64,000 nucleotides of DNA, from the NCBI GenBank assembly GCA_016222905.1, contig JACRPZ010000049.1, positions 1 through 64,000 of the forward strand. The letters are read 5' to 3'. The DNA comes from Nitrospirota bacterium. GTDB taxonomy: Bacteria > Nitrospirota > Thermodesulfovibrionia > UBA6902. Of this stretch, positions 28,121 through 30,346 are shown piece after piece (within the stretch, counting starts at the first letter, position 1; the number at the start of each line of letters is the position of its first letter). A program made the position numbers and the translations under genes. A model generated the notes under the pieces. That model saw only the letters and a program-made list of their open reading frames with translations, did not search any database and was not told the DNA's origin.

Positions 28121-28576
28121 TTAGGTAAGATTTTTTACGTTCTTTTTTTTAACTTTTTTATCTTTTTGCCGTTGTAAAGACCAAGGTAAAGTGAGAGGAA
28201 TTTCCATGGAATTTAAAATATTTGTTAAAAAAGCTCTAATTACAGGGAACAATTGATTTCCCAACAATTCAGTAACTTTTTTAAAATCTTTAGGGTCACT
28301 ATTGTCGCTATCGATAATCAAATAATCTCCCCTAAACTTGGAGATTATTTGAAAATATTCATTCTTATCATTATCAATAGCTTTTAATTCTGTATTAAGA
28401 CTAAGATAAAAGTCGTACTTATTCTCTTTGGGGTGAACATCAAATTTTACGGAATGCTTCATAGTGATGCCCAATGTTATTGACTGCTCAATATCCGGTT
28501 TGATAAATTTACTGGAACATTCAAGCAATCTTAATTTACCTAATTTACAAGTGTCAATGTAGGTTCTTTTTTCCAT
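28121..28576 (-). CDS. SecB-like chaperone of a toxin-antitoxin-chaperone system
   Basis: A 151-residue protein with the SecB layout: beta-rich N-terminal two thirds (VKFDVHPKENKYDFYLSLNTEL), then a long helix ELLGNQLFPVIRAFLTNILN and the terminal LTLPW segment. The C-terminal part matches SecB's LFPxxR helix and PPLxL end in order and spacing. The lysine-rich tail is unusual. ATG 28576 follows AAAGGG by seven bases, and the gene overlaps hicB by 37 bases, so the three are translated together. In known TAC systems the SecB-like protein protects an aggregation-prone antitoxin through the antitoxin's C-terminal tail. The call is by pattern, not by search. Confidence 0.72.
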   Translation of the reverse strand: MEKRTYIDTCKLGKLRLLECSSKFIKPDIEQSITLGITMKHSVKFDVHPKENKYDFYLSLNTELKAIDNDKNEYFQIISKFRGDYLIIDSDNSDPKDFKKVTELLGNQLFPVIRAFLTNILNSMEIPLTLPWSLQRQKDKKVKKKNVKNLT

Positions 28577-29001
28577 TGCATATCCCTTTCAGTAACTTCT
28601 ACTAATGTTTGTTCATATTTAACAGTAACTGTATGCTTATGATTATGAACAATCTCTTTTTGTTCTGTCTTGTTAAGATATTGTATTAAAGCCTTTTTTA
28701 CAACGTCATTAATTGAAGTTTCATTTGTAGTAGCATAGTGCGCCAAAGTCTGATGCAATTCACTTCCTATCCTAACGTTAAAGGTACCGCTAAATGGTTT
28801 AAGTGGTTCTCTGCCAAGTTTTCTACATGTGTCTAAATAATCATCAACAGCATCTTTAAATTCAACTTCTATTTGTGCTGGAGATTCAGCTTCATATGTC
28901 ACCAAATCGTCAATAAATAGAAGTTTGCCATGAATACACTTGTTATCATTGCTGATTTCTTTTGAACCTAAAAAACCTTTATAACGTAATACGTTTTTCA
29001 T
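28540..29001 (-). CDS. hicB: HicB-type antitoxin with C-terminal extension
   Basis: A 153-residue antitoxin. The N-terminal two thirds have the partially degraded RNase-H-like HicB fold (YKGFLGSKEIS, IHGKLLFIDDLVTYEAES, EFKDAVDDYLDTCRKLGREPLKPFSG). A ribbon-helix-helix DNA-binding domain follows (FNVRIGSELHQTLAHYATTN, SINDVVKKALIQYL). About 40 residues extend past the usual end, with Trp in RDMQWKKEP. That position suits a chaperone-addiction tail recognised by the SecB-like partner encoded next. It overlaps hicA by four bases (ATGA), with GAAAGGA upstream. Confidence 0.85.
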   Translation of the reverse strand: MKNVLRYKGFLGSKEISNDNKCIHGKLLFIDDLVTYEAESPAQIEVEFKDAVDDYLDTCRKLGREPLKPFSGTFNVRIGSELHQTLAHYATTNETSINDVVKKALIQYLNKTEQKEIVHNHKHTVTVKYEQTLVEVTERDMQWKKEPTLTLVN

Positions 29002-29249
29002 GGATGAATTCCTTTCTCTTCCAACTGAGTTGTTACGTCATTTACCATGTATGATTTTAGAATATTACTGGGGTGAGGTTTGTGTAAATTAATCAAACTA
29101 TTCGATTCAGCATTGTAGAATTTAATTCTCGATCCTCTCCCCCTGATTTCTTTGTAACCAAAACCAGACAAAAGGGTCTTTAGCTCTTCCCAAGTGAAAT
29201 CCGTTGGCTTTGAAAAAAGCCGCTCTAATAACTTAGCCTTCTTCGACAT
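28998..29249 (-). CDS. hicA: HicA-type mRNA interferase toxin
   Basis: An 83-residue toxin of the HicA (YcfA) family, a small double-stranded-RNA-binding-fold ribonuclease that cleaves mRNA. The core reads LLSGFGYKEIRGRGSRIKF, with the GSR variant of the usual GSH, and INLHKPHPSNILKSYMVNDV, which carries the LHxPHP signature. It is the first gene of the three-gene unit. A consensus promoter lies so close upstream (-10 ends two bases before the ATG) that the transcript would start at or just after the annotated start, so initiation here needs care. Confidence 0.88.
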   Translation of the reverse strand: MSKKAKLLERLFSKPTDFTWEELKTLLSGFGYKEIRGRGSRIKFYNAESNSLINLHKPHPSNILKSYMVNDVTTQLEEKGIHP

Positions 29250-29251
29250 TA

Positions 29252-29280
29252 ATTATATAACCATATATTTTATTTTGCAA
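29252..29280 (-). promoter_or_regulatory. Sigma70-type promoter of the hicA-hicB-secB-like unit
   Basis: On the minus strand TTGCAA (29275-29280) and a perfect TATAAT (29252-29257) are separated by 17 bp. The -10 lies only two bases before the hicA ATG, an unusually tight arrangement. Confidence 0.6.
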
Positions 29281-29798: not shown

Positions 29799-30017
29799 TC
29801 ATTTCTTCAACCATTCATCATTACTTATGCCAGCCTGTCGCAAAAGTCTCTTCAAGAAACCTACCCCTATGTCAGCCTCATGCGGGTTAGGAATAATAAG
29901 CGTCAAATCTCCCCTTCGCATTTTCGGATGTTTGCCTCCAATATATGGGCCTTCAAATCCAAGCTCCTTCAATCTTGCAACAAAGTACTTCCATGTAACC
30001 GGATTGAGAGGCTCCAC
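29799..30017 (-). CDS. hicA: Second HicA-type toxin
   Basis: A 72-residue HicA-family toxin: LKELGFEGPYIGGKHPKMRR carries the GGKHPKM form of the catalytic-His loop, and TLIIPNPHEADIGVGFLKRLLRQAG is the usual C-terminal part. The GTG start overlaps the hicB stop by one base. The gene order is hicB then hicA, opposite to the other module, and the protein belongs to a different HicA subgroup, so the two modules are not a recent duplication. Confidence 0.88.
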   Translation of the reverse strand: MEPLNPVTWKYFVARLKELGFEGPYIGGKHPKMRRGDLTLIIPNPHEADIGVGFLKRLLRQAGISNDEWLKK

Positions 30018-30262
30018 TATGCTGCCTGTTCGACAACATTTAAATCAATCCCGTCGACAACCGGCAAGGCAAGCTTATTTCTTAAACGGTAGATGATCCA
30101 ATCCTCCAGGGCCTCTTTGAGTTCATATCGGCACTTTTCAAGGGTTTCAGCCTTGCCCCATACCCCCTGGAAGCCGGGTAATTCACCCCAATAAGATTTT
30201 TCATCCTCTATGATTTCGTAATGGGCTGCTTCCATTGTCTTTTGAATATATTCACTCAGCAT
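30017..30262 (-). CDS. hicB: Second HicB-type antitoxin
   Basis: An 81-residue HicB-family antitoxin with the typical YEIIEDEKSYWGELPGFQGVWG strand pair and ETLEKCRYELKEALEDWI helix, lacking a separate DNA-binding domain at the C-terminus. ATG 30262 is preceded by AAAGGAGG. The in-frame start at 30289 lies upstream of that ribosome site. It forms a tight pair with the downstream hicA. Confidence 0.88.
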   Translation of the reverse strand: MLSEYIQKTMEAAHYEIIEDEKSYWGELPGFQGVWGKAETLEKCRYELKEALEDWIIYRLRNKLALPVVDGIDLNVVEQAA

Positions 30263-30346
30263 AACGCCTCCTTTGAAACTGTTGTTCATCTGCAGAAATT
30301 ATATCATGATTTGAAAGATATTGTGAAAAAATTACAGCATTGATAT

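Follow-up and report, generated by a model that had tools for sequence, protein, structure and literature searches.

A probable tripartite hicA-hicB-secB-like toxin-antitoxin-chaperone operon with a divergent third protein in a Nitrospirota genome

Three overlapping minus-strand genes in the 64,000-nucleotide stretch analysed here (the window) probably form a tripartite toxin-antitoxin-chaperone (TAC) operon, hicA-hicB-secB-like, in which HicB would depend on the third protein as its chaperone. We put the probability of this reading at about 0.84. Toxin, antitoxin and a gene that is SecB-like by predicted fold and by profile lie together in one operon, and HicB carries a C-terminal extension missing from its two-component homologues. 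The predicted fold and the three-gene architecture are well supported. The toxicity of HicA, the binding of the tail by the chaperone, the instability of HicB without it and the trigger of the system we infer from precedent.

In the proposed mechanism, HicA would act as a ribonuclease that blocks translation, and HicB would both neutralise HicA and repress the operon through its ribbon-helix-helix (RHH) domain. The tail would prevent newly synthesised HicB from folding, or leave it open to proteolysis, until the third protein, a predicted SecB-fold chaperone (the solved examples are tetramers), binds it. Loss or diversion of the chaperone would then free HicA and lead to growth arrest.

The operon and its HicA-HicB pair

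The sequence-only reading of this DNA had proposed such a trio, and the three overlapping genes are indeed present where it placed them:

28998..29249, minus strand: hicA, predicted toxin, 83 aa (PF07927, E 2e-10)
28540..29001, minus strand: hicB, predicted antitoxin, 153 aa (PF05534, E 3.5e-16, and alignments)
28543..28680, minus strand: C-terminal tail of HicB, residues 108-153, putative chaperone-addiction (ChAD) region (missing from untailed HicBs; co-occurs with the third gene)
28121..28576, minus strand: predicted SecB-like chaperone ('HicC'), 151 aa (hhalign to SecB, AlphaFold2, Foldseek)

The gene order on the minus strand is hicA, hicB, third gene, with overlaps of 4 nt between hicA and hicB and of 37 nt between hicB and the third gene. 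The operon lies in a housekeeping region, flanked by a TPR gene on one side and by a second HicAB pair and recJ on the other. This second pair (29799-30289), on the same strand just upstream, is unrelated to the trio; its HicA matches PF07927, and its HicB is of the UPF0150 kind and has neither a tail nor a third gene. A promoter-like site (TTGCAA-17-TATAAT) occupies 29252-29280 on the minus strand; only 2 nt separate it from the hicA start codon downstream, a spacing too short for a normal leader. No convincing candidate for a HicB operator was found at the locus.

Assignment to HicAB is given by a HicA domain above its Pfam cut-off (PF07927, 41 bits against 27) and by an RHH-type HicB directly after hicA. 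HicA keeps the columns that are invariant among 98 HicAs of its subfamily, namely W20, GSRxKF and HxPHP (H56, P58, H59), and the LHxPHP signature noted earlier is present as LHKPHP. A GSxH-type histidine, to which a role in HicA is ascribed, is carried by many HicAs and is missing from those of the present subfamily; this absence counts against the TAC reading. HicB consists of an N-terminal HicB domain, an RHH/HicB domain at residues 55-105 (PF05534, 59 bits against a cut-off of 21) and a C-terminal tail, the last two as the sequence-only reading had described.

A SecB-like third protein

The third protein has no match in Pfam, NCBIfam or PADLOC, and its PHROG match is insignificant. A direct search with it returned only itself from bacterial genome contigs, viral contigs, plasmids and 296 genomes of the phylum, and its relatives were reached via HicB. 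Dozens of loci carry such a relative in the equivalent position, which identifies the open reading frame as a real gene. The closest relative (L096) shares 35% identity with it over 109 aa, with a pairwise E-value of 2e-16.

The protein is laid out as four strands followed by two helices, with an LFPVIR helix, corresponding to the SecB LFPxxR helix recognised earlier, and an IPLTLPW end. A profile of the window protein and seven divergent relatives was compared with SecB by hhalign, the E-values referring to single comparisons. The probability was 95.5% (E 1.4e-8) for 30 SecBs and 96.4% (E 1.2e-9) when only 13 of them, from the same phylum, were used. The match is colinear over about 115 columns, and E stays below 1e-5 when any one relative is left out. 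Controls failed, with 2.6% for the reversed profile and 0.1% for HicB. The window protein alone matches SecB weakly (9%), and the enterobacterial HicC set alone has no SecB profile match (0.8%). The link to SecB rests on the divergent group of the window and on the structural model that pools both groups.

Prediction of the fold from the single sequence by AlphaFold2 was uninformative (pLDDT 47; matches to CapZ and, weakly, to SecB), and relatives were therefore collected before modelling. With 37 of them, the monomer model reached a pLDDT of 86.9 and a pTM of 0.78 and showed the same order of four strands and two helices. In Foldseek, all 19 PDB chains matching at E < 1e-3 are SecB or SecB-TA. 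The best of them, 5MTW (E 2.4e-6), is the SecB-like TAC chaperone of M. tuberculosis with the HigA1 ChAD peptide. In a viral library, two of the four significant matches are annotated SecB. Lack of a SecB fold had been named beforehand as the outcome that would count against the sequence-only reading; the fold predicted here is that of SecB.

The protein is not filed under PF02556 because it has no match to that family. TAC chaperones outside PF02556 are already on record, 33 of them in one survey (PMC4257090). Many short, divergent SecB homologues were also seen within the host's phylum (L208-L233) and may represent further TAC chaperones.

The HicB tail and its association with the third gene

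A search with HicB identified 50 loci in bacterial genomes. Among them are loci of Kluyvera and Thiobacillus, in which the HicB has a long tail and the next gene is similar in size to the third gene. The set was widened with E. coli prophages, a Rahnella plasmid, lambdoid phages and IMG/VR contigs to 113 distinct HicBs of the subfamily, 112 of them with enough downstream sequence. A third gene was counted where an open reading frame of at least 85 aa starts between -45 and +20 nt from the HicB stop. By this definition it follows 45 of the 48 HicBs with tails of at least 40 aa, and 46 of 48 when L122, at an offset of -46, is added. Of these 46 genes, 42 are SecB-like and four belong to another small family. 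In the remaining two long-tailed HicBs, L050 and L188, the tails are unrelated and look like read-through or altered ends. Any such open reading frame follows only 7 of the 64 HicBs with shorter tails; these seven are unlike one another and unlike the third family, and were judged to be chance occurrences. In the family or order to which the host belongs, HicA relatives at 51-53% identity, including the closest ones, are partnered with untailed HicBs and have no third gene.

On a tree built from the HicB core alone, without the tail, the tail/third-gene trait needs two changes. One group holds 45 of the 46 tailed HicBs with a third gene (SH-aLRT 89, below the star threshold), the tree having few columns and L004 standing apart on a long branch. 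The tailed HicBs mostly form one clade, abundant in prophages.

This pattern bears on the possibility that the locus is an ordinary two-component HicAB system, next to which a SecB-fold third protein has a task of its own, such as general chaperoning or export. PF02556 recognises no SecB in the host genome, and those TAC chaperones that have been tested are able to substitute for the SecB of E. coli (PMC6377645), both of which would suit such a role. However, the genes overlap, the tail and the third gene are present together and absent together, and some relatives are found in genomes that also carry a normal SecB. An independent chaperone function and a TAC function are, moreover, not mutually exclusive. 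As an explanation that replaces the TAC operon, it is very unlikely.

In the window, about 46 residues of HicB lie beyond the recognised domain, which ends at residue 105, and include EIVHNHKH and RDMQWKKEP. The expectation that this extra tail sits where a ChAD-type region should lie agrees with the joint occurrence of tail and third gene across the subfamily. An HxH-type stretch opens many of the tails that accompany a SecB-like gene. The tail tryptophan (Trp143, within RDMQWKKEP) stands at position -11 from the HicB end. Of 38 non-redundant tails that are paired with a SecB-like gene, 35 contain a tryptophan, and -11 is its commonest position there as well. However, a tail tryptophan is missing from several near relatives (L096, L113, L114), the first of which is nearest to the window by its third gene. 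The third-gene ATG (28576-28574) overlaps the Trp143 codon (28575-28573), CAA TGG being read as ATG G at 28573-28576, so that conservation of the tryptophan may partly reflect the overlapping start codon. Several phage relatives have a candidate third-gene start at the same -37 offset. The ChAD of HigA1 depends on a tryptophan (W108), together with R110 and Y114 (PMC6377645). The window tail could not be aligned with any known ChAD. As a ChAD-like feature, the tail tryptophan is suggestive only.

Known TAC systems and phage-borne relatives

The sequence-only reading held that HicAB-based TACs had little experimental description. This does not stand: HicAB-type TACs have been listed, and in 2016 experiments in E. 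coli showed that the one from Methylomonas methanica depends on its SecB-TA and that its HicB tail (aa 119-159) can be transferred to another antitoxin (PMC5105189). The kind of system is therefore already known, and the present operon comes from a HicAB lineage other than the one tested. The MC09 locus (Metme_2813-2812 and SecB-TA), retrieved via a published primer sequence, shares with the window the gene order hicA, hicB, SecB-like third gene, a C-terminal HicB extension of about 41 aa that holds a tryptophan, and a third protein, validated in this case, without any Pfam match. However, its HicB is only about 22% identical overall to that of the window, with BLAST matches confined to the surroundings of the RHH domain, and its HicA bears a GGH motif. 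The two third proteins are not significantly similar: BLAST gives an E-value of 2.5, and a global alignment, when forced, 24% identity. With HigBA1-SecB-TA of M. tuberculosis (Rv1955-1957) the window shares the architecture, the ChAD complex 5MTW being the best structural match of its third protein and the known ChAD likewise relying on a tryptophan. The toxin and antitoxin families differ (HigBA), and the ChAD sequence cannot be aligned with the window tail.

The hicABC loci of lambdoid phages (mEp234, mEp506, HK106; also E. coli and Kluyvera prophages; PHROG 19522) belong to the same HicAB subfamily as the window, with a tailed HicB whose tryptophan is mostly at -11 and a third gene of the same extended family. 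Their third proteins are only about 10-20% identical to that of the window. They are phage-borne and lie beside cI, whereas the window copy is set among chromosomal housekeeping genes. MqsRAC (PMC9519451) and CmdTAC (PMC11618068) of E. coli follow the same TAC logic with a SecB-like chaperone but use other toxin and antitoxin families; anti-phage defence has been shown for those systems.

CmdTAC also illustrates a second alternative, in which the third protein is a SecB-fold co-antitoxin or sensor that binds HicA or a phage protein, and not the chaperone of HicB. The chaperone of CmdTAC is contested by a phage capsid protein (PMC11618068), and the position of the third gene beside cI in lambdoid phages fits a sensing role. 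However, sensing via the chaperone is TAC behaviour itself, the best structural match is a ChAD-bound chaperone, and the third gene tracks the HicB tail, HicA occurring with or without it. This alternative is very unlikely. That the locus is a decayed or inactive remnant, with a non-toxic HicA or a non-addictive tail, is highly improbable: it is a single copy and the other 295 sampled genomes of the phylum have no relative of its third gene, but each of the three reading frames is intact and well formed and HicA retains the subfamily's invariant columns.

As a TAC operon, the window would add a system whose chaperone is too divergent for family databases. It also leads to dozens of equivalent three-gene loci, in a tailed-HicB lineage that is common in prophages and largely unannotated; the third gene mostly bears the label 'hypothetical protein' or 'unknown'. 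Several of these loci adjoin cI in E. coli phages, and superinfection-exclusion genes are often located beside cI. If they work as TACs, they would provide ready test cases for the sensing of phage proteins by a HicAB TAC via its chaperone, as in CmdTAC. It is conceivable, though doubtful, that the tailed HicB lineage is a large prophage-borne TAC class (HicABC) that guards lysogens against other phages via a divergent SecB-like chaperone, replaced in places by an unrelated small protein, so that addiction would not be SecB-dependent.

Of greatest interest are how large the prophage-borne clade is and a group of loci where a different small gene seems to have taken the place of the SecB-like one. 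In this group a tailed HicB is followed by a non-SecB-like gene (L103:2239-2592, L003:3437-3778, L124:3449-3730, L146:3491-3775). The products, of 94-118 aa, share a conserved LVKHYGLxEGRYDLAVEFQIGxGAVGPD..LPGVIIGI stretch and have no significant Pfam match. The four loci are nested inside the tailed clade of the HicB tree, which suggests replacement of the chaperone gene.

No description of hicABC of the mEp234 type was found in the open literature, and two papers on HicA or HicAB are silent about chaperones. The GenBank record for mEp234 (PV340539) carries the depositor's names HicA toxin, HicB antitoxin and HicC chaperone. The hicABC-like trios adjoining cI lie at L069:3302-4432 in mEp234 and at L070:2092-3183 in HK639, where all three genes are annotated 'unknown'. 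Another such trio occupies the early region of an E. coli prophage (L066:4053-5189), near hokD.
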